A stretch of 51,484 bases of DNA, taken from NCBI GenBank assembly GCA_949282305.1, contig CASDPB010000006.1, forward strand, positions 1-51,484, written 5' to 3'. Below are positions 18,122-37,635 of the stretch, piece after piece. The notes beneath the pieces were generated by a model, which saw nothing but the letters and a program-made list of their open reading frames with translations, did not search any database and was not told where the DNA came from. Each line of letters begins with the position of its first letter. Positions within the stretch are counted from its first letter, which is position 1. Both the position numbers and the translations under genes were made by a program. Origin of the DNA: an uncultured Lentisphaeria bacterium. GTDB taxonomy: Bacteria; Verrucomicrobiota; Lentisphaeria; Victivallales; UBA1829.

Positions 18122-18865
18122 TTACGGCGCAAAATATACGCCGCTGTTGATGTTTATCGTCTCTCCGGTCATCGCTCCATAGCGGAGGGAGTTGACCGCC
18201 GCTTCCGCAACCTCTTCCGCGGTGGCCGCGCGATGGAGCGGGAAGCGTTGCAGTTTCCGCTCGATCTCCTCGTCGGAGAGACGATTGTGAATGTTTTCCG
18301 TCTCCACCATTCCCGGGGCCAGCGTGTTGACGGTGATGCCGAACTCTCCCAGCTCCAGCGCAAGACACCGGGTCAACGCATGTATTCCCGCCTTCGAAAC
18401 CGCATACGGCAGCAGCCGCTCCTCCATCCCGATGTGCGCCTGTACGCTCGAAATATTCAGAATCCGCCCCCAGCGGCGGCGCTTCATCCCCTCTTTGACC
18501 GCCTGCGCACAGAGATAGGCGCCGGTCAGATTGACGTTCAGCAGGTGGTTGAACCAGGCGCCGTCGCTCATGCCCGCCGGACGTTTGTAGGGGTCCTGCC
18601 GGGCGTTGTTGACCAGAATGTCGATCTCCATTCCGCCGATCGCCCGATGCACTTCCGACTCATCGGTGATGTCGAAGATCAGCGTGTCGGCGAAGAATCC
18701 CTTCTGCCGTAGATCGCTGCATACCTTCGCCGCCTTTTCCGGCGAGTGGGCGCAGTTGATCAGAACCCGGCAGCCCTGTCCGGCCAGCGCTTCGGCGATG
18801 GCGCGTCCGAGCCCCTGCGCCGAGCCGGTGACGAGAGCCATTCTTTCTGCAAGTTTGTCAGCCAT
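18122..18865 (-). CDS. SDR-family NAD(P)-dependent oxidoreductase
   Basis: 247 residues with the full classical SDR set: cofactor motif TGSAQGLG (13-20), NNA (86-88), catalytic Ser near 140 (NISS) and Tyr154-x3-Lys158 (YAVSK), then the PG motif in LAPGMVETEN. It probably oxidises a sugar or sugar acid, or reduces a uronate, feeding the dehydratase encoded two genes upstream. The start MADKLAERM at 18865 has AGGGAG about seven bases upstream and overlaps the aldolase stop by 8 bases, indicating translational coupling. An in-frame ATG 39 bases earlier lies inside the aldolase gene without a ribosome site. Confidence 0.88.
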   Translation of the reverse strand: MADKLAERMALVTGSAQGLGRAIAEALAGQGCRVLINCAHSPEKAAKVCSDLRQKGFFADTLIFDITDESEVHRAIGGMEIDILVNNARQDPYKRPAGMSDGAWFNHLLNVNLTGAYLCAQAVKEGMKRRRWGRILNISSVQAHIGMEERLLPYAVSKAGIHALTRCLALELGEFGITVNTLAPGMVETENIHNRLSDEEIERKLQRFPLHRAATAEEVAEAAVNSLRYGAMTGETININSGVYFAP

Positions 18866-19502
18866 GTACAATCTCCCTGAGATGAAGTTCAATCTGCCGG
18901 GCAAGGGCGGTCCGGTCCCGCCGTTCCACCGGATCCGGCGGAAAAACCGATGCCCCCGCCCCGACCGCGACCGCCCCGGTCGCCAGCATGGAACGGAGTG
19001 TCTCCGGCGTCACTCCGCCGGTCACGATAAACGGGATATGCGACAGCGGCGCAATCATCGTTTTTACATAAGGCTCCTGCCCCGGAAGAATCGGGAACAG
19101 TTTGACCAGATCCGCACCCGCTTCCCACGCATGCAGAATTTCGTTCGGGGTGAGCGCGCCCGGAATCACGGCCGCCCCCCGGCGGTGCGCCGTCTCGATC
19201 ACGGCCGGAGAACAGGCCGGAGAAACGAGGAATTCCGCGCCCGCGTCCGTCGCCGCCTCCGCCATCGGGACATTGAGCACCGTTCCGGCGCCAATGCGGA
19301 GGTGCGGAAATGCCCGCCGGAGCTCCCGGATCGCGTCTCCCGTATGGCGGAGCGTTTCGGAATCGGAGGGATCGAAGGTGACTTCGAGAAATTTTCCGCC
19401 CTGCGAGGCGAACACTTCCGCGCAGAAGAGAAGCCGGTTCGCCGGAATGTGGCGCAAAATCGCGAGAAAACGCGCCTGCCTGAGCTCTTCAGAAAGTTTC
19501 AT
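18858..19502 (-). CDS. KDPG/KDPGal-type aldolase
   Basis: 214 residues, class I aldolase of the Eda/DgoA family. AILRHIPAN supplies the conserved Arg near 17, LEVTF holds the conserved Glu at 40, GAGTVLN (71-77) is the family glycine turn, and DLVKLFP contains the Schiff-base Lys134. The reaction would be cleavage of 2-keto-3-deoxy-6-phosphogluconate or -galactonate to pyruvate and glyceraldehyde 3-phosphate. No 2-keto-3-deoxy kinase is visible in the operon, so either a kinase lies elsewhere or an unphosphorylated substrate is used. Its ATG lies inside the end of the dehydratase gene (14-base overlap) and its stop overlaps the SDR start. Cytoplasmic. Confidence 0.88.
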   Translation of the reverse strand: MKLSEELRQARFLAILRHIPANRLLFCAEVFASQGGKFLEVTFDPSDSETLRHTGDAIRELRRAFPHLRIGAGTVLNVPMAEAATDAGAEFLVSPACSPAVIETAHRRGAAVIPGALTPNEILHAWEAGADLVKLFPILPGQEPYVKTMIAPLSHIPFIVTGGVTPETLRSMLATGAVAVGAGASVFPPDPVERRDRTALARQIELHLREIVHG

Positions 19503-20676
19503 GTTCCAACCCCTTGAAGTAATAGACCGTGTCGTCTTGCGGACGGATGTCGGTGACGTTCCCGGTGTAGTGGCGCAGGTTGCGCGGTTTGTAAGGATAC
19601 TCCGCGAGGACGGATTCCTCCACTTCGATTCCCAGGCCCGGCCGGTCGGGAATGCGAATACAACCACGGTCGAATTCGACGCATTCGTCGGTGATGCGTT
19701 TCCGGAAACTTCCGTCGGTGAGCATGATTTCGTGGATGAGAAAATTCGGCGTGCAGGCGGCGAGCTGCAGAATCGCCGCATTGGAGACCGGTCCGCTCGG
19801 ATTGTGGAACGAGACCGGAATGTGTTTCGCCTCGGCCATTGCCGCAATTTTCTTCGATTCAAAGAGCCCGCCGGTGTGGAAGATGTCCGGCTGGGCGATG
19901 TCGACCGCATTTCGTGAGAAAAGCTCCTCAAAGCCGAACTTGGTGTAGACCCGTTCTCCGGCGGAAATCGGAATCGGCGACCGGGAACGAATCTCCGCCA
20001 GCACGGCAAGGTTGTCCGGCGGACACGGCTCCTCCATCAGCATGATGTTGTACCGTTGGAGTTCGCGGGCGATTCGCAGGGCAGTGTAAGCGTTGAAGCG
20101 ACCGTGGCATTCGATCATAAGATCGACCTCCGGACCGACCGCCTCCCGGACCGCGCCGACGATTGCGGAGGCGTGACCGAGTTCCCGGTTGCCGATCGTC
20201 ATATGGGCTTTGCCGAAAGGATCCCACTTCAATGCTGTGACGCCGAGCACGATGGTTTTCCGCGCCGCCGCCGCAAACTCTTCCGGACTCCGGGCTCCGA
20301 TGAACCAGGCGTTTGCGTACATCCGCACGGAATCGCGCATTTTGCCGCCCATCAGGGCGTAGACAGGGACGTTGAAGTATTTTCCGATGATGTCCCACAT
20401 CGCCATCTCGATGCCGCTGATTGCGGACATGAGCACCGGGCCCCCCTTCCAGTAGATGTCGCGGTAGACCTCGAAGCACATCCGTTCGATCTCCCGCGGA
20501 TCGCGGCCGATGATCAGCCGTTTCAGGTCTTCGACACAGCCGGTGAGGGCTCCCTCCTGCGTTCCCAGCGAGGCTTCCCCCCAGCCATACAGCCCTTCGT
20601 CGGTTTCCACTTTCACAAAGGTCCAGTTGGTTCGGAAGGCGTCCATGACAAAGGTTTTGACTGCAGTGATCTTCAT
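19489..20676 (-). CDS. Galactonate-dehydratase-like enolase-superfamily enzyme
   Basis: 395 residues of the mandelate racemase group. Expected residues fall in order: metal ligands Glu189 (IECHGRF), Glu215 (LMEEP) and Glu241 (SAGERVY), with general acid/base His191 and His291 (FHNPSGPVS). From recall of E. coli galactonate dehydratase (D183, H185, E209, E235, H285), all five sit at a constant +6 offset, with Glu replacing Asp in the first ligand. That supports dehydration of an aldonic acid to a 2-keto-3-deoxy acid, the substrate of the next gene's aldolase. GGAGAG lies five bases before the ATG. It is the first gene of the eight-gene operon, divergent from the AraC-type regulator. The exact acid sugar is uncertain. 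Confidence 0.85.
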   Translation of the reverse strand: MKITAVKTFVMDAFRTNWTFVKVETDEGLYGWGEASLGTQEGALTGCVEDLKRLIIGRDPREIERMCFEVYRDIYWKGGPVLMSAISGIEMAMWDIIGKYFNVPVYALMGGKMRDSVRMYANAWFIGARSPEEFAAAARKTIVLGVTALKWDPFGKAHMTIGNRELGHASAIVGAVREAVGPEVDLMIECHGRFNAYTALRIARELQRYNIMLMEEPCPPDNLAVLAEIRSRSPIPISAGERVYTKFGFEELFSRNAVDIAQPDIFHTGGLFESKKIAAMAEAKHIPVSFHNPSGPVSNAAILQLAACTPNFLIHEIMLTDGSFRKRITDECVEFDRGCIRIPDRPGLGIEVEESVLAEYPYKPRNLRHYTGNVTDIRPQDDTVYYFKGLEHETF

Positions 20677-20699
20677 GATTCTCTCCGTTTTTACCTTTA

Positions 20700-20734
20700 A
20701 TTATACTTGAATCCGGAGAAAATGTATATATATT
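20700..20734. promoter_or_regulatory. Overlapping divergent promoters, dehydratase operon / AraC-type gene
   Basis: Plus strand: TTGAAT (20707-20712), 16 bp, TATATT (20729-20734), firing toward the AraC-type gene. Minus strand: TATAAT at 20705-20700 with a weaker TATACA 17 bp upstream (20728-20723), firing toward the operon. The boxes interlock, so RNA polymerase can serve only one side at a time, a common arrangement for activator-controlled divergent units. Confidence 0.5.
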
Positions 20735-20757
20735 TCATGCTAAAAGAGAGGAATATT

Positions 20758-21609
20758 ATGCTGAAAACCGACTTTATGGAAAAGTTGCGGCTGTTTTCCG
20801 AGGAACTGAAGACTCTGGGGAAATTTATCGAAAGCGGTTTCGTCTGGCATTTTTCCGACAACGACCTACTGATGAACGTGTTGCGGGAACAGAGCGAGCA
20901 CGCGAATCCCTACTGTCGGATAATCAAGGGCAATCCCTATCGGAAGCTGAACCGCTGCATTCACTTTCATCACGATGAATCGTTTCGGAAACTCCGGCTG
21001 TCGCCGGGATTCCGGATTGCGGAGTGTCATGCGGGCGTGAAGACTCTTGCTGTGGGCATGACGGTTTCCGGGGTTCTGAAGGGGGTGCTGTTCGTCGGCC
21101 CGTTCGCCGGGGAGACGAAACGGCTGATACCGCTGGACCTCCCGTCCGTTTCGGACCGGCAACTGAGTCTGCTGGGGGACTACCTCAAGCAACGGATGGA
21201 TCATCTCTTCGATTCGGAGTGGCTGCCCGGGCAGGAAAAACCGCTTTTGCCCCAGCTCCCCTCTTCGGATCGACGGATTCTCGCTGCAGCCAATTACATG
21301 CGGGACCACTGCTATGATTGGATTACGGCAAAGCAGGCTGCGGAGGTCAGCGGATTGAGTGTCTCCCGTTTTCTGCATCTGTTCCGGATGGAGACGGGAT
21401 ATTCGTTCAGCGATTGGCTGCAGCGGCTGCGAGTGGCCCGGGCCTGCCGTCTACTGGAAGAGTCTCCCTACAAGCTGGCGGAAATCGCCGAGACCGCTGG
21501 GATTCGCGATCAAAGTCGTATGACGGTTCTGTTCCGGCGTTATCTCAACACCACTCCCGGGGAGTACCGGACCTCTTTCCGCCGGGGAACAGGCGGGGTT
21601 GCTGTCTGA
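20758..21609 (+). CDS. AraC-family activator with PocR-like sensor domain
   Basis: 283 residues. The N-terminal part (about 15-150) has CIHFHH and a 'GVLFVGPFAG' strand, resembling the PocR ligand-binding domain (Cys/His-containing, PAS-like). The C-terminal part has two AraC helix-turn-helices: ITAKQAAEVSGLSVSRFLHL, and YKLAEIAETAGIRDQSRMTV ending in FRRYLNTTPGEYR. It most likely activates the divergent GH/galactonate operon in response to a sugar-derived ligand. ATG 20758 was chosen because GAGAGGAAT lies just upstream and because the predicted transcript starts near 20741; upstream in-frame ATGs lie within the promoter. Confidence 0.85.
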   Translation: MLKTDFMEKLRLFSEELKTLGKFIESGFVWHFSDNDLLMNVLREQSEHANPYCRIIKGNPYRKLNRCIHFHHDESFRKLRLSPGFRIAECHAGVKTLAVGMTVSGVLKGVLFVGPFAGETKRLIPLDLPSVSDRQLSLLGDYLKQRMDHLFDSEWLPGQEKPLLPQLPSSDRRILAAANYMRDHCYDWITAKQAAEVSGLSVSRFLHLFRMETGYSFSDWLQRLRVARACRLLEESPYKLAEIAETAGIRDQSRMTVLFRRYLNTTPGEYRTSFRRGTGGVAV

Positions 21610-22005: not shown

Positions 22006-22034
22006 TTGAAAAAAGAAAGACTTGTATTTATAAT
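22006..22034 (+). promoter_or_regulatory. Strong predicted promoter of the LacI-led operon
   Basis: TTGAAA (22006-22011), 17-bp spacer, perfect TATAAT (22029-22034). Transcription would start near 22041, so translation must begin at ATG 22075, not at a start around 22006. Confidence 0.65.
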
Positions 22035-22074
22035 ACCTCAACCATCAGGAAAAACCTACTGCGGAAATGAAAAC

Positions 22075-23085
22075 ATGGTAACAATCAAAGATGTTGCTGC
22101 ACGTGCCGGAGTGCCGGAAAAGACGGCAATGCGAGCGCTTTCCGGAATGACAATGGGAAAGCGGCGTGACGCAAGGGAGCGTCTGGAACGGGTCATGAAA
22201 GCCGCGGCGGAACTCGGCTATCAACCCTCGGAGATCGCAAAAGCCCTGCGGAAAGGCAGAACCAGAACCATCGGGCTTCTCGTCGGCAGCATCACGAACC
22301 GTTACTTCGCTTCGCTTGCCGAAACGGTCATGGACGAAGCGGAGCAGCATGGATACCGCATGATTCTCGAACTGACCCGCTGGAACGTGGAAAAAAGCAT
22401 TTTCTGCCTGGAGCATCTTCAACGCTCCAGAGTCGACGGAATCTTTTACGCTTCAGGGCACTTCCCGGAAGAACGCCCCTGCCTGGAAAAGCTCCGCAAT
22501 GCGGGACTTCCGATAATCATGCTCTACCGCAACGCTTACGGAATCGCTTCCGTCGGCAGGGATCATTCCGTCTCGCTCCCTCTCGCGGTTCAAAGTCTCG
22601 CCGGAAAAGGCGCCGGAAATGCAACGCTTTCCGTATGGGACAGTCGGACGCCGCAGGATGAAGTCCTCATGGAGCTGTTTCTGAACGCCTGCCGCAAATA
22701 CGGCATTGCCCCCGCTCTGCACCATCCGCATTCGCTGGACGACATGGATGCACTGGCGGACACCGCTCCCCCGGCATTGATCTGTGACGCGCCCTACTGT
22801 CTGAAACATTTCTGTTCCGCCATCCGCGGCAGACAGAACTATCATCCGCATATCATCGGCATTTATGACGAGTGGAACTGGCTGGAACGCCCGGATTCCC
22901 TCTGCGGCGCAATCCTGCTCCAATCCGAAAAACAGATACGGCTTGCGGTTCATGAGCTGATCGGGCAGATCGAACATCATACCGAACCGGATGCCCTTTC
23001 CATTCAGTCCCGCTTCTATTGCAGGGAAAATTTCAACGATATTCCGGCGAAAGACCTCTCCTCCCGGCATCTGTTCCCGTTCTAA
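22075..23085 (+). CDS. LacI-family transcriptional regulator
   Basis: 336 residues. Residues 1-50 form the LacI headpiece: MVTIKDVAARAGVPEKTAMR, then a hinge helix near LGYQPSEIAKALRKGRTRTI. The rest has the periplasmic-binding-protein fold typical of sugar sensing (TIGLLVGSITNRYFASLAET, then VDGIFYASG and VGRDHS). The DNA-recognition turn reads VPEKTAMRALSG rather than the common 'VSxxTVSRVLN', so its operator may be unusual. ATG 22075 fits the promoter at 22006-22034; the Shine-Dalgarno sequence is weak. It heads a same-strand run of U32-like, three 4Fe-4S and one exported protein genes, which it probably controls. Confidence 0.85.
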   Translation: MVTIKDVAARAGVPEKTAMRALSGMTMGKRRDARERLERVMKAAAELGYQPSEIAKALRKGRTRTIGLLVGSITNRYFASLAETVMDEAEQHGYRMILELTRWNVEKSIFCLEHLQRSRVDGIFYASGHFPEERPCLEKLRNAGLPIIMLYRNAYGIASVGRDHSVSLPLAVQSLAGKGAGNATLSVWDSRTPQDEVLMELFLNACRKYGIAPALHHPHSLDDMDALADTAPPALICDAPYCLKHFCSAIRGRQNYHPHIIGIYDEWNWLERPDSLCGAILLQSEKQIRLAVHELIGQIEHHTEPDALSIQSRFYCRENFNDIPAKDLSSRHLFPF

Positions 23086-23152
23086 TTTAGAAAATTTTGA
23101 GAAAAACAGCATTTCCTGCTTTTGCAGACAGTTGACTTTTTTATTTTTTCAT

Positions 23153-23176
23153 ATAACTTATATCGAAGACAGTTAT
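23153..23176. promoter_or_regulatory. Possible operator before the U32-like gene
   Basis: ATAACT (23153-23158) and AGTTAT (23171-23176) form an inverted repeat with a 12-base spacer in an AT-rich gap; a TTGACT box lies at 23132-23137 but no well-spaced -10 is clear. It could bind the LacI-type regulator encoded just upstream. Confidence 0.25.
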
Positions 23177-23200
23177 TATATAAAAAAGGATAAAAAAAAC

Positions 23201-24247
23201 ATGCGCTTCATGATCGGTTACCAGATGGCCGCAGACAACCGTTTTCTCAACGTCATGCTGCGGAACAAGGAAAAGATCGGCGAGGTCTATTTCGCGTGGC
23301 CGGACATTCCCTCCGGGCGCGGCACTATGAAAAGCGGCAAACCGGACAGCCTTTATGCGATACAGGAAAAACTTCTGTCAGACCTGAAGCTTCTCAGTGA
23401 TGCGGGAATTTCCCTGAATCTGCTGCTGAACGGGAACTGCTACGGACGTTACAGCCAGGCGCGCTGCTTTTTTGAGAAAATCGGGGATATTGTCGATTTT
23501 CTTGCATCGGATTTTCTTCTGACTTCGATTACCACTTCCTCGCCTTTGATTGCGAAATTTCTGAAACAGAATTTCCCGAAACTGGAAAGACGCGCATCCG
23601 TCAATATGGAAATCGGCACCATCGAAGGAATGGACTATCTCGCCGCTTTCTTCGATGGCTGTTATCTGCGCCGCGAACTGAACCGGAACATCGAAAAGAT
23701 ACAGGAAATACGCGCATGGTGCCTGCAAAACGGAAAAAAACTCTATGCGCTGGCAAACAGCGGCTGCCTGAACCATTGCTCCGCCCACAATTTCCACGAC
23801 AATCTGGTCGCGCACGAAAATGAAATACGGGAAATGGACAATGCGTATGAATTCTCCGGAATCTGCCGGAGCTGGCTGGAACAGCCGGAAAAACGCCGGG
23901 ATTTTCTGGCAGTAAGCAATTTCATTCGTCCGGAAGATGTCAACCTTTATGAAGGATATTTTGACGGACTGAAGCTCGCAACCCGTGTCAACCGCAATCC
24001 GACGGCAGTCGCGGAAGCGTATTTCACGGGCTGCTGTCACGGCAATCTGCCGGATCTTCTGGAACCGGCTCATACGGAGGTATTCTATCCTGAAATCTTG
24101 GAAAACTCCCTGCTTCCAGCGGATTTCGGTAAACATACGCTTCATTGCAGCCGCGACTGTCGCAATTGTTCCTACTGCCGCACTGCACTGGAAGGCGCAC
24201 TGGTAAATTTGAACGACTGGAATCATCAGCATGAAAAGAGGAGATGA
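23201..24247 (+). CDS. Peptidase-U32-like cysteine-rich protein
   Basis: 348 residues. The overall pattern resembles collagenase-like U32 proteins (the UbiU/UbiV/RlhA group): an N-terminal barrel, then ANSGCLNHCSAHNFHDN around 186-201, matching the family's 'N-GC---C---H' segment. Further cysteines sit at 222 and in a C-terminal cluster Cys316-x3-Cys320-x2-Cys323-x2-Cys326. Several U32 proteins bind a 4Fe-4S cluster and work in oxygen-independent hydroxylation or RNA modification rather than proteolysis, which fits its three iron-sulfur neighbours. ATG 23201 follows AAAAAAGGA. The next gene starts at 24249, a single base after its stop. Substrate unknown; no protease site is seen. Confidence 0.6.
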   Translation: MRFMIGYQMAADNRFLNVMLRNKEKIGEVYFAWPDIPSGRGTMKSGKPDSLYAIQEKLLSDLKLLSDAGISLNLLLNGNCYGRYSQARCFFEKIGDIVDFLASDFLLTSITTSSPLIAKFLKQNFPKLERRASVNMEIGTIEGMDYLAAFFDGCYLRRELNRNIEKIQEIRAWCLQNGKKLYALANSGCLNHCSAHNFHDNLVAHENEIREMDNAYEFSGICRSWLEQPEKRRDFLAVSNFIRPEDVNLYEGYFDGLKLATRVNRNPTAVAEAYFTGCCHGNLPDLLEPAHTEVFYPEILENSLLPADFGKHTLHCSRDCRNCSYCRTALEGALVNLNDWNHQHEKRR

Positions 24248-24248
24248 T

Positions 24249-25316
24249 ATGCTTACATCTGAAATGGTCAAAGAAGCGGCGCTTTCCGCCGGAGCCGATC
24301 TCGTCGGAATCGGTGACATGGCGCGCTTTGAAGGTGTACCTGCGGAAATGGACCCCCGTGCCATTTTCCCCGAAGCCAGGACGGTAATCGGAATGGCGTT
24401 CCGGATTCCGCGGGGTGTCCAGCAGGGAATCGAACAGGGCACCCAGTTCTATCAGTATCCCTCCATGGCTTACGGGGGAATCAATGAAATCTTTGCCCCG
24501 GCGGTCCTGTATCACGTCGGAAAAATGATCGAGGACCACGGATACGAGGCGGCGGTCTACCGCAATACAGGCGCACGCGGCGTGGTTTCCGACATGGACG
24601 GCAGTCCGGGGAACACGCTTTCGCCTGAGGAACAGATCAAAGTCAATGAACAGGCGAAGAACAAGGCGGCGCATCACCGCTCCGTCCAGTTCACGCGCCC
24701 GGCGAGAGAGGGCGGTGTGGCTCCGGATCTCCAGTTTCATTTCCGTCTGGCTGCGGTCGTGTGCGGACTGGGGGAGATGGGTTGGAGCAAGATGTTCCTC
24801 ACGCCGGAGTTCGGACCGCTTCAGCGCGTTGCGTTCATCTTCACGGACGCCCCGCTGGAACCGGACCCGATGTATTCGGGGCCGCCGATCTGCCGCCGGT
24901 GCATGGCATGTGTCCGGGAATGCCCGGGGCAATGCCTGAGCAGGACGGAGAGCATCACGGTTTATGTCGGAGGCAAGAAATGCGAATGGGGCAGACTCGA
25001 CGAATGGAAGTGTTATGCATTCTACACGCACGGTGGGCGCAAATTCAATCCGTTTGTCCCGCGGGAAGTCTGGGACGCCAATGAAAACGGGGACTTGAAT
25101 CTGCTGGAAGGGAAATGCACCGCCAACGAAGCGGAAATCATGAAAGTCTACGGCGCGCTGGAAAAATATTTTCCGTCATGGGTCGGCTACAATATGGCGA
25201 AATGCGGCGGATGCATCCGCGCCTGTGTCAGTATGCTGGAAAAGAAAGGCGGATGCATGGAACACCGCTTCCGGCGGCCGCTGCGCACCGGCAAGGCATG
25301 GGTCATGGACAGGTAG
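24249..25316 (+). CDS. QueG-like 4Fe-4S reductase, paralogue 1
   Basis: 355 residues. The N-terminal half resembles epoxyqueuosine reductase and reductive-dehalogenase-like enzymes (AGADLVGIGDM, ARTVIGMAFRIPRG, then VVCGLGEMGWSKMFLTPEFG). A ferredoxin motif Cys215-x2-Cys218-x2-Cys221-x3-Cys225-Pro follows (CRRCMACVRECPG). A second, shorter group Cys319-x2-Cys322-x3-Cys326 lacks the usual final CP of true QueG. QueG uses cobalamin and two clusters to reduce epoxyqueuosine; whether this protein binds cobalamin is unknown. Three diverged copies in a row make a housekeeping tRNA role unlikely. AAGAGGAG lies five bases before ATG 24249. It lies one base after the U32-like gene. Confidence 0.72.
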   Translation: MLTSEMVKEAALSAGADLVGIGDMARFEGVPAEMDPRAIFPEARTVIGMAFRIPRGVQQGIEQGTQFYQYPSMAYGGINEIFAPAVLYHVGKMIEDHGYEAAVYRNTGARGVVSDMDGSPGNTLSPEEQIKVNEQAKNKAAHHRSVQFTRPAREGGVAPDLQFHFRLAAVVCGLGEMGWSKMFLTPEFGPLQRVAFIFTDAPLEPDPMYSGPPICRRCMACVRECPGQCLSRTESITVYVGGKKCEWGRLDEWKCYAFYTHGGRKFNPFVPREVWDANENGDLNLLEGKCTANEAEIMKVYGALEKYFPSWVGYNMAKCGGCIRACVSMLEKKGGCMEHRFRRPLRTGKAWVMDR

Positions 25317-25325
25317 GAGGAAACA

Positions 25326-26234
25326 ATGCTGACAGCACAGATCATCAAAGAAAAAGCGCTGGAATACGGAGCCGATCTCGCCGGAATCGGTGACATCCGT
25401 CATTTCGAAGGCACGCATCCGCAGCGCGATCCCCGCAGTATCCTGCCCGACGCCACCTGTATCATCGGGTTCGGGTTCAGAGTACCGCGCGCCCTCTATC
25501 GCGTCATGGAATCAAAGGTGCAGTTCTTCAATTATACACAGCTCGGCGTCAAGCTGATCGACGAAGAACTTTCGGAGGTTTTTCTGCTGAAAATGGGCGC
25601 GCTGATCGAGAACGAGGGATACGACGCCTGTCTTCAGCGCAATGTATCCAACCTGAAAATCAAGGGAGACCATACCACCAATCCGGAGCTTGTGGACACC
25701 TATGAACTGAAACATGTGGAAGCCGTGGCGCCGGGAAAACCGCTCCCGGACATCATCTTGGACTTTGCGGAGGCGGCACGAATCTGCGGTCTCGCCTCCG
25801 TCAGCTGCAAGGGCAATGCCATCGCGCCGAAATTCGGGCCGTTCATCCGTTTTGTCTTCATCGTAACCAATGCTTCGCTTGAAACAGACCCGCCGTTTGC
25901 CGGCTCTTTCTGCGACCGGTGCGGGAAATGCGCGGAAAGCTGCCCCGGACACGCCATCGACATGAAAAACGGCCTGGATACCTGGCAGTGCGCCGTTTAT
26001 TACCGCGGGGCGCACCGCTCCAATCCATTTCTGGGAGAAGATTTCCTGAAAGATCATCCTGACCGGGAAAAGATACTGAACGGAGAATTCCGGTTCACAC
26101 GGGAAAGCGCACGCGCGATTTACCCGAAACTGGATTTTCTGCCGTCCCGCGCCACCGGCTATGCGCCGTGTCTCTGCGGCAAGAAATGTGATATCGCCTG
26201 TTACAACCATCTGAAGGAAAAAAATCTGCTATGA
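25326..26234 (+). CDS. QueG-like 4Fe-4S reductase, paralogue 2
   Basis: 302 residues, clearly related to paralogue 1 (GADLAGIGDIRHFEG, CIIGFGFRVPRAL, then the ICGLASVSCKGNAIAPKFGP segment). The ferredoxin motif is CDRCGKCAESCPG (C-x2-C-x2-C-x3-CP). The second cysteine group is CLCGKKCDIACYNHL near the C-terminus, different in spacing from paralogue 1. It lacks about 50 residues present in paralogue 1 between the two clusters. AGGAGG six bases before the ATG gives strong translation. It follows paralogue 1 by 9 bases and overlaps paralogue 3 by 4 bases, so the three are coupled and may form one complex. Reaction unknown. Confidence 0.72.
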   Translation: MLTAQIIKEKALEYGADLAGIGDIRHFEGTHPQRDPRSILPDATCIIGFGFRVPRALYRVMESKVQFFNYTQLGVKLIDEELSEVFLLKMGALIENEGYDACLQRNVSNLKIKGDHTTNPELVDTYELKHVEAVAPGKPLPDIILDFAEAARICGLASVSCKGNAIAPKFGPFIRFVFIVTNASLETDPPFAGSFCDRCGKCAESCPGHAIDMKNGLDTWQCAVYYRGAHRSNPFLGEDFLKDHPDREKILNGEFRFTRESARAIYPKLDFLPSRATGYAPCLCGKKCDIACYNHLKEKNLL

Positions 26235-27190
26235 ATACGCTCAAACAAAAGATCATCGACAGATTCCGCCGGTTCGGAGCCGATCTTGTCCGCTTCGGAA
26301 ATGCGGGCCGCTGCCGTGATCCGAAGGTCCGTCTGCTGATGCCCGAAGCCGAAACCGTGATCTGCGCGGCGTTCCGTCAGCTTCGCGGCGCCCGGCGTGG
26401 AATCGAGGAGGGTTCCACCTATTATCAGTACACCACAAACGCCGTCGAAGTTCTGGAGGAAAACGTGATGCCGATTGCGCTTCTCCGAGTTTCCGCATTA
26501 CTGGAGGACTGCGGCTTCGAAGCGCTTCCGCAACGGCGCAACCAGACCGTCATGCAGGCGGACGACGACACCAACTTCGAGGTGGACTACCGGGAAATCT
26601 ACCGGGGAAGAAAAGCGGAAAACCAGCTTGATTTCGAGCAGTGTGCCGTAGACTGCGGACTCGGGGAACGCGGTCTTTCAGGTTCAATCCTGACCGATGA
26701 ATTCGGTCCCTGCCAGCGTTATGTCTTTCTTCTGACCGATGCGAAAATCGAACCTGATCCGCTTGTCGCGCCGCATCTCTGCGACCGTTGCGGGAAATGC
26801 ATCGCGGCATGTCCCGGGCGCGCATTGAGTCGGGACGGAAAGCGGGACCGCTGGCAGTGTTCCGCCTACTATATCGGCGCCAACATGACGAAAAATCCTT
26901 TCATGCCGCCGGAGGCGTTCGCGGACGATCCCCGGCGTCTCGCGGTCATTACCGGAGAGACAAAACTTTCGCCGGAACGCGCACGGGAGGTCATGGAACA
27001 GATCATCTATTATCCGCCGGTCAAGCACGGTTACTGGGCAAGCATCTGCGGACGCGCCTGCGATACCGCGTGCAGCATTCATCTTGAGGAAAAAGGAGTG
27101 CTGACTCACAAGTTCAACACGCCGTTCCGCAAACGCCCCGAATGGAAACTGCCGCTTTTGCAGGAGGAGAAAAAAGAAAAAACGTCATGA
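26231..27190 (+). CDS. QueG-like 4Fe-4S reductase, paralogue 3
   Basis: 319 residues, third diverged copy (FGADLVRFGNAG, TVICAAFRQLRGARRGI, then DCGLGERGLSGSILTDEFGP). CDRCGKCIAACPG is the 4Fe-4S motif. The second group is reduced to CGRACDTACSIHLEEKG near 275-290, three cysteines only. Paralogues 1 and 3 share the 'GIE-G--YYQY' segment near residue 60, absent from paralogue 2, suggesting functional specialisation. Translation starts at the ATGA overlap with paralogue 2's stop. A lysine-rich tail follows. Probably an electron-transfer or reductive subunit acting with the U32-like protein; the substrate cannot be inferred. Confidence 0.7.
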   Translation: MNTLKQKIIDRFRRFGADLVRFGNAGRCRDPKVRLLMPEAETVICAAFRQLRGARRGIEEGSTYYQYTTNAVEVLEENVMPIALLRVSALLEDCGFEALPQRRNQTVMQADDDTNFEVDYREIYRGRKAENQLDFEQCAVDCGLGERGLSGSILTDEFGPCQRYVFLLTDAKIEPDPLVAPHLCDRCGKCIAACPGRALSRDGKRDRWQCSAYYIGANMTKNPFMPPEAFADDPRRLAVITGETKLSPERAREVMEQIIYYPPVKHGYWASICGRACDTACSIHLEEKGVLTHKFNTPFRKRPEWKLPLLQEEKKEKTS

Positions 27191-27289
27191 AAAACGCAGG
27201 CATTCATTTGCGCAAGGAGGTGCAGTAAGACAGAAACAAACACCCGCCGCCAGAAAATCAATCTCACGTGAACCCGGAAAGGAAACAAT

Positions 27290-27820
27290 ATGAAAAAATC
27301 TGCATTCATGCTTACATTCTGCATCGCTGCGGGGGCATTTGCCGCCGAGCCCTATCAGGATCTCCCCGCCGAAGTCAAAAACGCAAAAATAATGAAACAG
27401 TTCGACGGGAAAATGCTCGGAAAATATACCAACGGGAAAATAGCAAAGGACCCCGTGTCTTCCATGGAGAAAAGCTCCATCTGGGTTCCCAAAGACCAGA
27501 AGCTGCACAAATTCCCGATTCCGCTCGGAATCTGCAACAGGGAAATCAACAGGACGATCTGCCGCATCTATATCAAAGAAGCTCCTGCGGATGAAAAATA
27601 TCATTGGTACAAAATCGGCACGGCAGTCATTGCGAAGCGCAATGTAATCTACGCGGCGGACTGGCACATCAGCATCAACATCAACGATATTTTCCAGGAA
27701 AACGGCGATAACGAATATGAGGTCTGGGCATCCCTCAAAATCCAGGGGCCCGCTTATGTAAAAGGCTCCGCAAAACCCAATGAGCTTGCGCTCGACCGTG
27801 CGGTTCTCATAAAAAAATAA
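27290..27820 (+). CDS. Small exported protein of unknown function
   Basis: 176 residues with a clear Sec signal peptide (MKKSAFMLTFCIAAGAFAAE, cleavage near AFAAE). The mature part is beta-rich and basic, containing CNREINRTICRIYIKEAPAD and ending in an EYEVWASLKIQG-like strand, suggestive of a carbohydrate-binding or jelly-roll fold, but no family is recognised. AAAGGAA precedes the ATG. It lies 99 bases after paralogue 3 and ends 15 bases before a strong terminator, so it is probably the operon's last gene. Its export contrasts with the cytoplasmic redox proteins upstream and hints that the operon handles an imported compound. Confidence 0.7.
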   Translation: MKKSAFMLTFCIAAGAFAAEPYQDLPAEVKNAKIMKQFDGKMLGKYTNGKIAKDPVSSMEKSSIWVPKDQKLHKFPIPLGICNREINRTICRIYIKEAPADEKYHWYKIGTAVIAKRNVIYAADWHISININDIFQENGDNEYEVWASLKIQGPAYVKGSAKPNELALDRAVLIKK

Positions 27821-27835
27821 CACGTCTTCCAATAT

Positions 27836-27876
27836 AAAAAAATCCGTCCGGATATTCAGTCCCGGACGGATTTTTC
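27836..27876. terminator. Bidirectional intrinsic terminator
   Basis: A perfect 10-bp stem, ATCCGTCCGG (27842-27851) with CCGGACGGAT (27862-27871), and a 10-base loop, flanked by an A-run on the left and TTTTT on the right, so it works on both strands. It separates the convergent exported-protein gene and DUF4838 gene. Confidence 0.88.
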
Positions 27877-27894: not shown

Positions 27895-30885
27895 TTACGG
27901 AAGTTCCTCCAGCTTCACTTTATCAATCCATGCGGTTCCGGAAGCCAGGTTCTTATGCTTCGTGAAACGGATGTAGACATGTGTTCCTTTTGTCCGTATC
28001 TCCGGTGTTTTGAACTTAAAACTCTGCCGTGTCCACGGCATTGTCCCTTTATAGTTCTGGCGTGCGCCGGGCAGAATGACCGGCTTTCCGTTTGCCAGCT
28101 CCACGCGGACGTAAACACCGGAATCCTGTTTCGTCAGCGGCTTGACGTCCTTTGTCCTGATGTAATAGCTCAAGCGGTATTTCGTATTGGATTTCAACTG
28201 CGGAAGATACTGCCCAACGGATTCATTTTCCGCATTCAGGACAACTGAAACTCCTCCCGTACGGAAGATTTGCACATCCGTCGGCAGCACCTTTCCGGCA
28301 AACCATTTGCCGATAAAGCGTTTTCCCCGGACAGGCTTGTCGAAATCGGGCGTGTCAATCAGATTGTTATCCTCCGGCGCCTGAAAAAGCAGTTCGCCGT
28401 AAGCGGAAATCTTGTGATTGCTTCCCGTGACAAACGGGCTCCATGTGTCATAAGAATTCTTTTCCCCGTCAACCACGCGGTGACGGCAGACATTCGCCAT
28501 GATCGAATCACCGGAAAGCATCCCTGGATTCCTGCGCGGGATGCGGATCTCCAGATCCCAGTATTTACCGGGTTCGACGTGTGTTTTGAACTCCGCGCCG
28601 CCATCCCATTTCCAGTCGGTATAACCGGGACCGAAACGGTTGTCGGAACTGCTTCCGGCGGAATTGATGATGAACTGACAGCCGCTTTCCGCATTCCTCG
28701 CAGGCGCAAGGAAAAGTTCAAGACAGTTGTCCTGCCAGATGTCCTGAGCATCTTTTTCTCTCGACGGAGCGCGGAGTTTCGCCGTTTCCGGTTCCATGGA
28801 ACGGAAAAAGAAGTAAAAATTATCCTTGTCGCGGGCAGCCCTGCAGAGAGTTTGCTGCCGGACCGCCTCATCGTTCGCTCCGTTTTTCGGCACCAGATAA
28901 AACGGTTTCACCTGTTTCCAGAACGATTCCTCCATTTTGCCGTCCACAACGACTTTCTCCCCGGCGGGAACTTCCGGCATGACCGCATTCCAGTCACTGT
29001 TGTCGGAAACCATCTTCCGGTAGTCCGCGGCGGCAGTCATGACAGGTTTCCAGAGTTTTTCATACATGAATTTCACACGGCGGAGAGAATCCGGGTCTTT
29101 GGCTGCCGCCGCTTCCGCAGCTCGGAACAAAGCTTCGATTCTGCCGCATTCCGCCTCGGAATAGATTTCCGTCCAGATTTTTTCGTCCGAAGGCACCACC
29201 TGAGTCGGACCGGTCGGCGTATTGACCTCACTGCCGCAGATTTCATTGATCCAGTGGCGTTCCAGCGTATCATAAAACTCCTTCATCTGCGGAGCCGCCG
29301 CGCCGAACATCAGGCGATGATGCTCGTCCAGCAGTTTCCTGACGTCAGTGTTTTTATCCCACATCACCTTGCCGAAAACATAGTAGTTGAGATAACCGAA
29401 AATCCAGCTGTCGGTTTCCGCCTCCGCAAAGGCGCCGAAAATGTAGGGCGACTGACGCCGGTAGAAATCGCCGAACGCCTGCGGCGCCATATTCGGAATG
29501 CCGCGGACAGACACCCAGTATTTGGAGGGATAAGTCCAGAGATACGTCCTGGCGTTGAGTTTTTTCTGCCAGTCGCGCAGCAGCCGTTCATCTTTTTTCT
29601 GTTGGGATTTGCCTTCATTCCACGGCCCCGTAACCGCCAGCATGACGATCATATTGTCCGGCAGACTGAACGAGGGAATCCCGCGATACTGGCTGTATGC
29701 CATCGTTGTGACGTATCCCGGAATCCCCGCATCCTTGACGCGCTGTGCAATGCCGGACATGAATTTCCAGATATAGTCGGTGGTTTCCTGCGTATAATTC
29801 CCCGCCGTGGAATCTTTGAAGTGCGGCAGGCATTCCGGGCAGCGGCAGAGGTAACAGCTGTCATTGGGCATGACGCAGAAAAATTCGCCCATGGTGTGAA
29901 AGTTATGGAAATTCCTGTGCCAGGCGATTTTCCCATCGCTCCCGAGCATCCCCGCCCGATCCTGCGGACGGTTTTCCAGAACGGCTTTGGCGTCCAGGAA
30001 AACTGAATCGAACAAGCCTTTGGAACTGAAACAGATCTGCCCCGCGGCATCGTTCGGATGCGAATAGTTCATCCCATTCTTGCGCATTCCCTGCGTGTCA
30101 AGCGCGAAGTATTCGGGATGAGTCTTCGCAAAACGTTCTTTCAAGCCGAGCGCCACCAGCCCGTGGCAATTCGGGATGTCGCGCGTCTGCATGCGGCTGC
30201 GCATTTCCGCCAGACGGTACTGCTTCATCGGATCAGGCGCCTCCTCATACCAGACCACGCGCTCTTTCCTGCCGCTGACACGGGGCAGATTGATTGTATA
30301 CATGCGCCGGTATTGAAAATCGGGACGTTCCATAAGATCAATCTTTACAGGCAGTTTCCACTCCTTCACGCGCGGCGTGACGGTGCCGGTCTCGCCGGGG
30401 AAATAGAACCGCACTCCGGCAAAACGCTCCAGAAAATCATAAACGGCAAACAGAGTCGCGCGCTCCGTCCAGGTGGAAATGCGTTGCGGGGAATCGCTGC
30501 CGACAATCAGGACATCATCCCCGATGCTCCGGATGAAAAATCCGTCACGGTCAAGTTTCGATACATCCATTCCATTCTTGAGCGCGAGAGCAGCATCCCC
30601 GACAATCAGTGCAGGCTTCTTCCCGCTTTTCTCGTTCAATATCTCCAGTTTACAGCCGAGAACCTTTCCCAGATGCTCCGCCAGTTCCTCCGCTGCGAAT
30701 TTTGCGGCGGGCGGCGCATTGCGCGGAGTGACGATTTCAAATTGCGGCATGCCGTCCGAAAACAGAATTCGCGTTTCAGATGCGGTGATGCATCTGCGTT
30801 CCGAAACCGGATTCGGCGCAAAACGTCCGGCAAACCCGCAGAACGACAGAAGCGCCGCAGACAAAACAATCAATGTATGTTTCAT
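27895..30885 (-). CDS. Secreted DUF4838 glycosidase-like protein with C-terminal carbohydrate-binding modules
   Basis: 996 residues with a signal peptide (MKHTLIVLSAALLSFCGFAG). Residues about 40-185 resemble the alpha-glucuronidase/GH20-type N-terminal domain (KFAAEELAEHLGKVLGCKLE, then FAVYDFLERFAGVRFYFPGE). The DUF4838 barrel follows (NYSHPNDAAGQICFS, CYLCRCPECLP, then the AYSQYRGIPSF region). Around 650-850 a CBM9/DOMON-like domain starts with EKVVVDGKMEESFWKQV, and the last about 140 residues look like a CBM4-type jelly roll. It is an extracellular glycan enzyme of unknown specificity. ATG 30885 has GGAGG eight bases upstream. It follows a pseudopilin gene (now a fragment) by 17 bases and has probably lost that operon's original promoter. 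Confidence 0.8.
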   Translation of the reverse strand: MKHTLIVLSAALLSFCGFAGRFAPNPVSERRCITASETRILFSDGMPQFEIVTPRNAPPAAKFAAEELAEHLGKVLGCKLEILNEKSGKKPALIVGDAALALKNGMDVSKLDRDGFFIRSIGDDVLIVGSDSPQRISTWTERATLFAVYDFLERFAGVRFYFPGETGTVTPRVKEWKLPVKIDLMERPDFQYRRMYTINLPRVSGRKERVVWYEEAPDPMKQYRLAEMRSRMQTRDIPNCHGLVALGLKERFAKTHPEYFALDTQGMRKNGMNYSHPNDAAGQICFSSKGLFDSVFLDAKAVLENRPQDRAGMLGSDGKIAWHRNFHNFHTMGEFFCVMPNDSCYLCRCPECLPHFKDSTAGNYTQETTDYIWKFMSGIAQRVKDAGIPGYVTTMAYSQYRGIPSFSLPDNMIVMLAVTGPWNEGKSQQKKDERLLRDWQKKLNARTYLWTYPSKYWVSVRGIPNMAPQAFGDFYRRQSPYIFGAFAEAETDSWIFGYLNYYVFGKVMWDKNTDVRKLLDEHHRLMFGAAAPQMKEFYDTLERHWINEICGSEVNTPTGPTQVVPSDEKIWTEIYSEAECGRIEALFRAAEAAAAKDPDSLRRVKFMYEKLWKPVMTAAADYRKMVSDNSDWNAVMPEVPAGEKVVVDGKMEESFWKQVKPFYLVPKNGANDEAVRQQTLCRAARDKDNFYFFFRSMEPETAKLRAPSREKDAQDIWQDNCLELFLAPARNAESGCQFIINSAGSSSDNRFGPGYTDWKWDGGAEFKTHVEPGKYWDLEIRIPRRNPGMLSGDSIMANVCRHRVVDGEKNSYDTWSPFVTGSNHKISAYGELLFQAPEDNNLIDTPDFDKPVRGKRFIGKWFAGKVLPTDVQIFRTGGVSVVLNAENESVGQYLPQLKSNTKYRLSYYIRTKDVKPLTKQDSGVYVRVELANGKPVILPGARQNYKGTMPWTRQSFKFKTPEIRTKGTHVYIRFTKHKNLASGTAWIDKVKLEELP

Positions 30886-30902
30886 CTTATAAACCTCCAT
30901 CA

Positions 30903-31583
30903 TTAAATTTCATTATGGAATAAATAATTCCTATTGCTTCCAAGTATCCGTCTGAGATCAAGAGCTTCAGCGTGCCCGTCAATAAAAAGCAGGTTGCACT
31001 GTTTCCCGTGGCGGAAACGCATCCCCGCATCGGTAGGAAGCGAACCATCTTTGCAGGGATAGGCATTCCCTGAAATAAATTTGTTGGTTCCTCCCCCCTG
31101 AGAGCCGTCAGTCAGATAGCAGGTTTTCCCAGGAAAACGAACCTGCCTCATTGCAAACAACTGTTTATACTCATTATATCCGACATCACAGCTGCGCGTA
31201 TAAAAATTAATGATATAGCTATCCGTCAGACAAGCTGATTTCGTTGCAGATGTTTTGTACATTTCCTCCGTTTCCTTGTCACTCGGACAGTGCATTGCAC
31301 CCGGTTTATCATAGGGCCAGGCAAACGTAACCATTCCGTTTTCCATCAGAATCGGAACTTTCAGATACGGTGCCATGCTATCATACCATCTGGTTCCTTT
31401 ATAGATGTTCGACAACGGGAAGAAATCCTTGTAATCATTTCCATACTGATGCAGTGCAAGCCCTATCTGTTTCTGGTTGGAAAGGCATTGCACGGCATAC
31501 GCTTTCTCTCTTGCCTTGCTCAACGCAGGCAGAAGCATACCCGCAAGAATCGCGATGATCGCAATCACGATAAAGACAACTTG
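30903..31583 (-). pseudogene. Pseudopilin-like gene truncated by the mobile element
   Basis: The minus-strand frame reads [40 protein letters not shown] and the [12 protein letters not shown] motif of this family, ending at 30903. The basic leader, the Phe and the start codon are missing: homology stops near 31575 and a TGA lies in frame at 31584-31586. The 'ELL' of the expected signal is replaced by residues from the neighbouring element (QVVF). The serine recombinase promoter starts at the break, so the simplest reading is insertion of the recombinase element into this gene. The missing 5' end was not found in the window. The DUF4838 gene follows in the same direction. Confidence 0.82.
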
Positions 31584-31647: not shown

Positions 31648-33330
31648 ATGAAAGCGTTGATCTATGCACGTCAGAGCAGCGGGAAAGATGATTTTTCGGA
31701 GTCTGTGGAAGCACAGATTGCCAACTGCAAGAAACTGGCAGAAAAAGAAAAACTTGAAGTCATTGGCATTTACAAGGACCTGAACTCCAGCGGCGAAACT
31801 TATCCGGTCGGTGCGGAGGAAATTGCCCGGCTTGACAAAGCCTATATGAATTGGAGTCTCACGCAAAGCACGAAAAAGGATTTCCGTCCGGGGCTGAGCC
31901 AGGTATTGCTCAAACTTCTCGAAGTTGATGTCATACTGGTTAATGAACTGACTCGGTTGTATCGTCCGATCAACGGAAGCTTTCTGGAAGGACACATCAA
32001 TCAGCTTCTCAAGGAAAATAATGTCAAAGTTTTGCAGGTTCAGGGTGGAACGATTGATTTGAGCAAGTTCGATCAGCAGTTGATTACGCTGATCAAAAAT
32101 CAGATTCTTTACGAGGATTTGCAGAAAAAGCGGCAGAACAGCATCAACGCTTTTCGGATCAAGAAGGATAGCGGCAGACTTTGCAGCGATGCGAAAATGT
32201 ATGGCATTCGCTATCTCGGCAACGGAAAAATTGAGGTGATTCCCGAATGGGTTGAAATCATCCGCTTCGTCTATGACAACATTTGCGCCTATCGTCCTTA
32301 CCGGGCAATCATCCGGGATTGCAATGAACGCTGGGGGAAGGAGATTTTTTTCTATGAAAGTTCGATTTATGCCATTGCAAAGCAGCCGATTTATTGTGGT
32401 TATCAGTATAACAGCCGAGACGAATTGATCAGGAATGTCCAGATAAGTGGTCAGGAGTTTATTTCATTCGAGCAGTGGCAGGAGGTCCAGAAGATCATTT
32501 CGCAGAAGCGTGCGAAATATCATGTAAAAGCAAAGAAACACTGGCTCCCATTATCAGGTAAACTCTACTGCGGGGAATGCGGGGGCAAATTGATCTGTCT
32601 GCTGGAACATGGGAAAATTTATTATACGTGCAATAAACAGATACTTGATCGGAATCATGCGGATTGCCGTAACAGCCGGATTCGCTTTGAATCCGGTTCC
32701 CGCGGAGAACCCGCATTGTATGATGCGATTTTTCCTTTGCTTTCCATTGCTTTGATCGAACGCTTTCGCAAGGCTTCGGAAGTGCTGAAGGAGAAAAAGA
32801 AACTGGCGGAATATGATGTGGAGTTGAAAAATCTGACGATGAAAGAAGAACAGCTTCATGAAATGTTTCTGGATGGTCTTGCGACAGCGGAGCAGTTGCG
32901 GAGTCTGCTGGCACGCAACAGGGAACGGCGCAACCAGCTTTTGCAGAAAGTCATGGAGCTGAAGAACAGTTCCATGAGCGACAGCAATCTGAAAGAACTG
33001 CAAACGCATATTCTGGCAGCCCAATTTGACGCTCTTGCCGAAAGGACTTTGGACCATGGGTTGTATGAAAGTCTACTGAATGACGCTCAAATCGCGGCGA
33101 CCAGTTATGCAGACCGGGTGGAATTTCATACTCTCTATGGGGATGTGACACTGCCCCGACTCCGTATCCGTAAACGCATCTGGATGCCAAAATGGGATAT
33201 TTCTCTACAAAACAAGGAAAACAACGAATTTTCCACGATCAATGAGAGTTCCCGGATTACGGTGACTTATCACACGGGGAAAGCCGGCATTCTTGCCGAT
33301 TTCGGGCAACTGAAAATCGTCGGCGATTGA
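31648..33330 (+). CDS. Large serine recombinase (site-specific integrase)
   Basis: 560 residues. The N-terminal resolvase domain begins MKALIYARQSSGKDDFSESV with the catalytic Ser around 9-10, and VNELTRLYRP is the conserved segment near 105. The recombinase domain (about 180-320) includes YGIRYLGNGKIEVIPEWVEI. A zinc ribbon follows (CGECGGKL, then CNKQ and CRNSRIRFE), then a coiled coil with KEEQLHEMFLDGLAT. Length and order are typical of phage or ICE serine integrases, which join attP and attB by a double-strand-break mechanism. AAGGAG lies nine bases before ATG 31648. The gene starts about 70 bases from the break in the pseudopilin gene. All key parts are present, so it looks functional. 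Paralogue of the fragment at 1-627. Confidence 0.92.
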   Translation: MKALIYARQSSGKDDFSESVEAQIANCKKLAEKEKLEVIGIYKDLNSSGETYPVGAEEIARLDKAYMNWSLTQSTKKDFRPGLSQVLLKLLEVDVILVNELTRLYRPINGSFLEGHINQLLKENNVKVLQVQGGTIDLSKFDQQLITLIKNQILYEDLQKKRQNSINAFRIKKDSGRLCSDAKMYGIRYLGNGKIEVIPEWVEIIRFVYDNICAYRPYRAIIRDCNERWGKEIFFYESSIYAIAKQPIYCGYQYNSRDELIRNVQISGQEFISFEQWQEVQKIISQKRAKYHVKAKKHWLPLSGKLYCGECGGKLICLLEHGKIYYTCNKQILDRNHADCRNSRIRFESGSRGEPALYDAIFPLLSIALIERFRKASEVLKEKKKLAEYDVELKNLTMKEEQLHEMFLDGLATAEQLRSLLARNRERRNQLLQKVMELKNSSMSDSNLKELQTHILAAQFDALAERTLDHGLYESLLNDAQIAATSYADRVEFHTLYGDVTLPRLRIRKRIWMPKWDISLQNKENNEFSTINESSRITVTYHTGKAGILADFGQLKIVGD

Positions 33331-33354
33331 TTTTATCAAATCTCGCGTTATATT
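33327..33354 (+). promoter_or_regulatory. Promoter/operator of the MntA-HepT pair
   Basis: TTGATT (33327-33332), 16-bp spacer, TATATT (33349-33354). TTGAT-TTT-ATCAA (33327-33339) is a dyad over the -35 box, a plausible site for antitoxin-type autorepression. The -35 overlaps the recombinase stop codon. Confidence 0.5.
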
Positions 33355-33387
33355 AAACTTTGAAAATGGAGTCCTTGGAGATGCATC

Positions 33388-33678
33388 ATGTGTCAGCTTG
33401 ATAATATCATGGCCAAACGTGACATTATACATAAATTGGCGAAAAGACATAAAGTCAAAAAAGTCTTTGTGTTTGGTTCTTGTGCCCGTAAAGAAGAAAC
33501 CGCTACCAGCGATATTGATTTCCTGATGGAATTTGAGCACAATGCATCATTCCGTGATAATATTGAATTTGAGGATGATTTGGAAAAACTTTTTCAACGT
33601 AAAGTTGATGTTGTTTCAAAGCGTGGTCTTCATCCTTTAATTGAGGATGATGTTCTCCGGGAGGCAATCGAAGTATGA
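33388..33678 (+). CDS. MntA-like nucleotidyltransferase antitoxin
   Basis: 96 residues of the minimal nucleotidyltransferase (MNT) family. VFVFGSCARKEETATSDIDF carries the GS-x10-D-x-D signature needed for nucleotide transfer. In characterised pairs, MntA AMPylates the Tyr of the HepT toxin's RX4HXY motif and so silences it. Length is normal. GGAG sits eight bases before ATG 33388. It overlaps the HepT gene by 4 bases (ATGA), the usual arrangement. Located on the mobile element just behind the recombinase, it probably helps the element persist. Confidence 0.85.
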   Translation: MCQLDNIMAKRDIIHKLAKRHKVKKVFVFGSCARKEETATSDIDFLMEFEHNASFRDNIEFEDDLEKLFQRKVDVVSKRGLHPLIEDDVLREAIEV

Positions 33679-34313
33679 GTAAACGGGATGATGCAGTCTT
33701 TCTTTATCATATCTTTGAAGCCTGTCAGAATATAATGACAATGCTGAAAGAGATTACTTTTGCGGATTTTCTGAAAAATCAGGAAAAGCAGGGGGCTGTT
33801 TTATGGAATTTTCAGGTAATCGGGGAAGCAACCAAACAGTTATCTGAAAAGATGACTCAGAAATATTCACGGGTGGAGTGGTCTTTAATGGCCCGTTTTC
33901 GGGATAAGATCGTTCATCATTATTTCGGAATAGAATTTGAGACTGTGTGGAACACGGCAAAAACGGAGTTGCCGAAAGTATTGTCAGAATTGGAACAAAT
34001 TCCTGAACTGATTGAAGTCCGCAAAAAAATGGCGGCAAAACAATTTGCAAATCTTGTTTTTTCCCTTACCGGTTTTACTGAACTGGAAGAACAGGAAAAA
34101 GAATTGCGGCGGCAATTGCGTATCTTGGGACATAACCGATGTTTGGTTGAGCAACCCTCCTCTTATGAGCATTGGATACAAATGACAGTTCCCGAACTGG
34201 TTGATATGCTTCTCAAAATCCCGGAGGAAAAACGTCAGGAAGTGTTACGCAAACATGAGAAAGGCTCTCATATGCCTGCGAGGAAAAAATCACCGCATGG
34301 CAGAGAACTGTAA
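33675..34313 (+). CDS. HepT-like RNase toxin with an unusual C-terminal extension
   Basis: 212 residues; typical HepT proteins are about 110-145. The HEPN domain (about 1-120) includes the catalytic motif R-DKIV-H-H-Y (RX4HXY) in MARFRDKIVHHYFGIEFETV, targeting RNA. From about 125 a second, Lys/Glu-rich segment follows: TGFTELEEQEKELRRQLRIL, then YEHWIQMTVPELVDMLLKIP and EEKRQEVLRKHEK, predicted helical and not part of known HepT. It may be a fused fragment of a neighbouring element gene or a specificity or oligomerisation tail. Translation is coupled to MntA through the ATGA overlap. Cytoplasmic. Confidence 0.78.
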   Translation: MSKRDDAVFLYHIFEACQNIMTMLKEITFADFLKNQEKQGAVLWNFQVIGEATKQLSEKMTQKYSRVEWSLMARFRDKIVHHYFGIEFETVWNTAKTELPKVLSELEQIPELIEVRKKMAAKQFANLVFSLTGFTELEEQEKELRRQLRILGHNRCLVEQPSSYEHWIQMTVPELVDMLLKIPEEKRQEVLRKHEKGSHMPARKKSPHGREL

Positions 34314-34314
34314 A

Positions 34315-34626: not shown

Positions 34627-34654
34627 TTCGTTGACCTCCATATTTGCTTGTTGA

Positions 34655-37633: not shown

Positions 37634-37635
37634 GT

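Follow-up and report, generated by a model that had tools for sequence, protein, structure and literature searches.

The window, meaning the whole stretch of 51,484 nucleotides that was analysed, carries one co-directional block that runs from a LacI-family regulator through a U32-like protein and three paralogues, named here QA, QB and QC, to a small exported protein and a terminator (Table 1). A reading made from the sequence only had named these parts, including a Cys-rich U32-like protein, three 4Fe-4S paralogues and a strong terminator, and all of them are present on the same strand. The gaps between the U32, QA, QB and QC genes are 1, 9 and -4 bases, the QC start overlapping the QB stop, and thus fit a single transcript for the four genes. 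The host genome, of 4.36 Mb and 96% complete, has the module on its contig 6 and holds no additional Q copies. Several points of the sequence-only reading needed correction. It had assumed one strong promoter; a promoter-like site does precede the LacI gene, but there are two signals, the second being an inverted repeat before U32. It had also counted the small exported protein in the operon; the protein is indeed encoded 3′ of the module, but it lies outside it and was not found at the other module loci. It consists of one domain, here encoded alone, that also occurs in dozens of 750-950 aa proteins of the family.

Table 1. Features of the module and its surroundings, in positions of the window.
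Feature	Position	Strand	Remarks
sigma-70-like promoter	22006..22034	+	TTGAAA-17-TATAAT, 11/12, consensus match only; ends 41 bases 5′ of ATG 22075
LacI-family regulator	22075..23085	+	PF00356 31.4 bits (cut-off 27)
Inverted repeat ATAACT-N12-AGTTAT	23153..23176	.	Probable operator for the U32-QA-QB-QC transcript
U32-fold TIM-barrel protein	23201..24247	+	Model pLDDT 93; 5d88 Z 19.7
QA	24249..25316	+	Class III cobalamin-enzyme fold (model); two predicted 4Fe-4S sites; best-conserved member
QB, second paralogue	25326..26234	+	TIGR02486 45 bits; PceA phmmer 2e-7; own clade, support 99; eight Cys invariant
QC, third paralogue	26231..27190	+	TIGR02486 40 bits; own clade, support 99; eight Cys invariant
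Small exported protein	27290..27820	+	3′ of the module, outside it
Intrinsic terminator	27838..27875	+	Hairpin -21.6 kcal/mol, z -6.0, T run

The LacI gene starts at the ATG at 22075 and not at the TTG at 22006, the promoter-like site lying just upstream of this ATG. A regulator 75% identical to it occupies the equivalent position at a locus of the same genus (L034/L074). When we looked for the dyad at 68 loci, allowing at most one mismatch and a spacer of 12-13, we found it 42-71 bases 5′ of U32 at 7 of them, against a mean of 0.16 after shuffling; five of the 7 have a LacI gene beside it in the contig. Because the inverted repeat before U32 is conserved, LacI control of U32 is suggested, and the candidate operator would place U32-QA-QB-QC as a whole under that control. 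The regulators found elsewhere are a divergent AraC-cupin in Clostridia loci and AraC or IclR types with a simpler, single form of the module described below, and an AraC with a sugar-binding domain is also among the regulators of relatives. The idea of a sugar-type regulator is thus well founded, both on the LacI profile score, which exceeds its cut-off, and on the regulators of related loci.

Carbohydrate genes also stand on both sides of the block. A small sugar-acid locus (18858-21609) adjoins the module, in which a KDPG/KHG aldolase and a galactonate-dehydratase-like enolase (18858-20676, minus strand) are divergent from an AraC protein with a PocR-type domain (20707-21609, plus strand). 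Convergent with the module is a gene for a 1002-aa exported DUF4838/GH67-like protein (27895-30903, minus strand), and a DUF4838 gene lies near the module in L034 too. Further along, a serine recombinase, an AAA protein and a YhcG/DUF1016 nuclease (31648-38826) form a mobile- or defence-like segment amid carbohydrate genes.

At the sequence level the U32 protein is hardly recognizable. Its PF01136 (peptidase U32) score of 14 bits is below the gathering score of 22.4, the profile matches just 4 of 53 U32 relatives, even weakly, and searches of PDB sequences gave nothing useful, its identity coming solely from fold comparison. Judged from its predicted structure, the protein nevertheless has a clear U32 fold, as had been proposed: its best match, 5d88, aligns with an rmsd of 3.1 over 225 residues, and the next match has a Z of 12.7. 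Four cysteines, C80, C189, C193 and C222, are invariant in the alignment of the 53 relatives, with the spacing C-x108-C-x3-C-x28-C, and a C-terminal four-Cys motif (C-x3-C-x2-C-x2-C) is present in 81 of 84 U32 proteins. Known U32 enzymes carry one 4Fe-4S cluster on four cysteines, usually as CX6CX15CX3/4C (UbiU/UbiV; PMC6747719). When we searched 112 proteins for G[SA]xCX6C, taken from that motif, it was absent from all of them, and N[ST]GC-x3-C was found in 111. The protein thus shares the TIM-barrel fold and four invariant cysteines with UbiU/UbiV, RlhA and TrhP but differs from them in its Cys spacing, its extra C-terminal motif, its sub-cut-off Pfam score and its partner genes, which are of the class III cobalamin type. 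Since the spacing is unlike that of known U32 groups, we consider it a distinct one. One genome of the host's family carries a tandem array of five U32 genes that lacks Q genes (L071, 6316-12213).

The three paralogues had been called QueG-like 4Fe-4S proteins. They are indeed three diverged tandem copies, and the QA model shares the QueG fold, but by profile score they are nearer to reductive dehalogenases: QA reaches 46 bits with TIGR02486 (QB and QC are in Table 1), under a cut-off of 160.35, while the QueG profile TIGR00276 gives 23, 30 and 32 bits for QA, QB and QC under a cut-off of 200. No curated family, and so none with a settled role, claims any of the three. The QA model (pLDDT 84) matches PceA, QueG and NpRdhA over nearly its whole length (Z 15.0-16.2, 205-231 residues, rmsd 2.7-3.9), with a nitroreductase-type cobalamin module and a ferredoxin module predicted in one chain, as in the class III superfamily. 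The next fold match, with a Z of about 10, is MMACHC, which raises the possibility that QA, QB and QC are MMACHC- or corrinoid-activase-like proteins for the handling or reductive activation of cobamide on behalf of a B12 enzyme elsewhere. However, a full ferredoxin part with eight cysteines is kept in all three, three diverged paralogues would be hard to account for, and we saw no B12-binding domain or methyltransferase among the scanned neighbours. An Rfam scan of the window gave no match and hence no cobalamin riboswitch, the one elsewhere in the host genome being a sub-threshold match. Altogether such a role seems to us rather improbable.

To compare residues we aligned 303 Q proteins (101 QA, 97 QB, 89 QC and 16 of the single form). 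The eight cysteines of the two predicted 4Fe-4S clusters are invariant in QA, QB and QC, except for one gap in one sequence, and R193, aligned to PceA R305 and NpRdhA K488, is found in 303/303. This active-site Arg/Lys is missing from QueG (PMC4646009; PMC7565698), while a Tyr above the corrin is common to RdhA and QueG (PMC4646009). In the column of that catalytic Tyr (PceA Y246/NpRdhA Y426) all 287 trio proteins have Glu or Asp, namely Glu in every QA and QC and in 96 of 97 QB, the remaining one having Asp, and Tyr is kept in 9 of the 16 single-form proteins. The register of this column rests on profile alignment and helix length, without atomic superposition; the HMMER alignment to NpRdhA is off register near the catalytic helix (it picks G404), and the position was taken from PceA and from the 18-residue distance between the Tyr and the helix-end Gly, which is equal in PceA and NpRdhA. 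The column of PceA N272 (N106) is Asn in QA, mostly Asn, Ser, Ala or Thr in QB, and Arg or Lys in QC. As the electron chain is kept and the pockets differ, we infer that the three are probably specialised subunits and not decayed copies. Because the Tyr position is occupied by Glu, they appear to be neither QueG nor reductive dehalogenases, despite the retention of the cysteines and of Arg/Lys.

The likeness to RdhA (PceA, NpRdhA) extends to the core fold of cobalamin and ferredoxin modules, the two 4Fe-4S sites and the Arg/Lys of the proton-transfer dyad, and a genuine reductive dehalogenase system acting on halogenated natural products would explain the top rank of RdhA among the profile matches as well as the invariance of that Arg/Lys position. 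Against it stand the scores far under the dehalogenase cut-off, the replaced Tyr, the lack of a Tat signal at the QA start and of any RdhB-like anchor that we could see, and the sugar context; the proteins also differ in being about 300-355 aa long and in that a single operon encodes all three alongside a U32 protein. We regard this explanation as very unlikely. A search of the phylum for full RdhA gave no matches, but its control queries were likewise silent, so that the result carries no weight.

With QueG the fold is shared, and hhalign aligns the QA profile with the N-terminal domain of QueG through the first cluster (probability 98.9). The fold alignment ends near QueG residue 253 and does not reach the C-terminal repeat domain, and the DYH motif, which hhalign puts within three residues of E80, is lacking, the corresponding QA segment being G-I-N-E. 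The Arg, absent from QueG, is a further difference. The host has QueH (172 bits) and no QueG; in a sample of 20 genomes from its order, among them the host itself, none had QueG. Queuosine therefore needs no extra reductase, and a tRNA queuosine role for the module is unlikely, in line with the doubt already expressed about housekeeping tRNA work. A queuosine- or TrhP-like RNA-modification module would have in its favour that RNA is the substrate of QueG and of several U32 enzymes, but the missing alignment to the QueG repeat domain, the patchy spread of QA relatives (68 of 338 genomes of the phylum sample) and the sugar-type regulators do not fit housekeeping work on RNA, and we find this very unlikely. 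The dehalogenase, QueG-replacement and MMACHC-like roles were ranked low on these grounds, namely the sub-cut-off scores with the lost Tyr, the QueH of the host and the eight retained cysteines, respectively.

In the same phylum sample, U32 relatives occur in 83 of the 338 genomes and accompany QA relatives in 58 of the 68; where the QA is a close relative, in 24 genomes, a U32 homologue is present every time. The four genes U32-QA-QB-QC were found at 20 loci of the phylum (L034-L053), a few of them cut by contig ends and one (L044) with U32 last. In the simpler form, a single Q protein, 36-41% identical to QA, lies beside a U32 protein of about 40% identity in 15 of 20 loci (L054-L073), with two such Q genes at L068. 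In a neighbourhood check set beforehand among named genomes, the gene set proved to be conserved together in several phyla: among the best 80 of 210 stretches, 62 keep the order and the strand of U32-QA-QB-QC. These 80 are the loci closest to QA, so that the fraction cannot be extended to the family as a whole, and they overlap our coded genome set, the two being not independent. Of the other 18, one carries U32 at the end of the set, and most are either truncated or without a neighbouring U32 gene. Their hosts are Clostridia (43), Lentisphaerota (29), Opitutia (3), Planctomycetia (2), Kiritimatiellia (1) and unplaced (2), which spreads the module over Lentisphaerota, Verrucomicrobiota, Planctomycetota and Clostridia, and they are anaerobes, largely gut-dwelling, from herbivore guts and digesters. 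QA was not found on plasmids in a plasmid search.

A tree built from 61 Q proteins resolves one clade each for QA, QB, QC and the single form (support 98-99); QB groups with QC, and the single form with QA. The inner branching is broadly alike in the QA, QB and QC clades, indicating that the trio moved as a unit. Genome G283, which belongs to the phylum of the window but to a different class, groups among Clostridia in all three clades, and this suggests horizontal transfer. The distances among U32 proteins track those among QA proteins (r 0.72, Mantel 0 of 1000), the correlation being in part shared ancestry.

This comparison bears on the division of labour within the module. The U32 protein could itself be the catalyst, an O2-independent hydroxylase of a sugar or glycoside of the UbiU/UbiV/TrhP kind, with QA, QB and QC as mere electron or cofactor partners. 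Its fold and its four invariant cysteines, which in UbiU/UbiV bind 4Fe-4S (PMC6747719), would suit such a role, as would the pairing of a single Q protein with U32. Yet of the four proteins U32 is conserved least (mean identity 51%, versus 81% for QA), and it has no place beside the trio at L085, which belongs to Oligosphaera ethanolica DSM 24202, or at L104, L123 and L128, so that it may be physically dispensable. It is QA that is nearly frozen (74-91% identical across phyla) with its active-site Arg kept, as a catalyst would be, and the Cys spacing of U32 departs from known groups. We think it unlikely that U32 is the catalyst.

The genes in line with the module in other genomes encode Gfo/Idh/MocA, DUF5696, GH43, GH63-like, aldose epimerase, MFS, EamA and sugar ABC proteins. 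Beyond U32-QA-QB-QC itself we found no constant flanking gene or neighbour enzyme, and since the carbohydrate genes vary from locus to locus, the module seems to have been added to carbohydrate loci of differing content and does not look like a component of a single fixed pathway. Among 25 families listed, sugar families were more frequent in the flanks than in control genes of the same contigs (49 proteins each), which is suggestive only of an enrichment, the sets being small and the controls unmatched for operon context. Genomes that carry the module are rich in carbohydrate genes generally.

The conserved gene set, the fold, the ligand cysteines, the Tyr-to-Glu exchange and the common dyad were observed by computation; cofactor, complex, substrate and reaction type are our proposals. 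We give an even chance to an anaerobic, sugar-induced B12/4Fe-4S reductase unit that would cleave a bond in a carbohydrate-derived compound. In keeping with this reading, the host encodes other B12-domain proteins. LacI would repress U32-QA-QB-QC via the dyad before U32 until a carbohydrate-derived inducer relieved the repression. QA, QB and QC are each predicted, from their fold, to hold base-off cobalamin in the nitroreductase-type domain, to which two 4Fe-4S clusters per protein would pass low-potential electrons. The U32 barrel, with its own putative Fe-S cluster, may form one enzyme or pathway unit with them, and this unit would reductively cleave or rearrange a C-O (or other C-X) bond of a sugar- or glycoside-derived compound, with the conserved Glu that replaces the catalytic Tyr acting on the substrate together with the Arg. 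Against this reading, the fold by itself is no proof of cobalamin binding, and the change from Tyr to Glu could mean altered or lost B12 chemistry. With rather less than even confidence, we suggest that the module may be a multi-subunit class III cobalamin enzyme, made up of three Glu-for-Tyr subunits of the RdhA/QueG fold and an Fe-S U32 barrel, which would use B12 for a reductive step in the catabolism of carbohydrates.

To our knowledge, class III B12 chemistry has so far been established for two reactions only, dehalogenation and that of epoxyqueuosine. The parts belong to known superfamilies; in the open literature searched, which left most subscription journals outside, we found no description of the gene set, of Tyr-to-Glu across three paralogues or of the U32 partner. 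The earlier impression that no system of this composition had been described agrees with this result and with the lack of a curated-family match. If the reading is true, the module would be a third class III cobalamin branch, near-unchanged across phyla, that extends B12 chemistry to carbohydrate metabolism and links cobamide supply to plant-fibre breakdown, and an uncharacterised U32 group would gain a testable partner and role.

Some loci depart from the usual arrangement. A small cupin-like protein with a WHH motif and no Pfam match (L143, 9062-9427) has eight similar ORFs; all of these nine except the L138 copy, which is downstream, sit between QA and QB in Clostridia loci. At one Clostridia locus a radical SAM-SPASM gene is inserted between U32 and QA (L147, 7057-7983). 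Finally, in genome G092 the genes of the module (at L038, 7833-8855, and elsewhere) show in-frame TGA/TAG within the aligned stretch, which may reflect degenerate copies, match overrun or assembly error.
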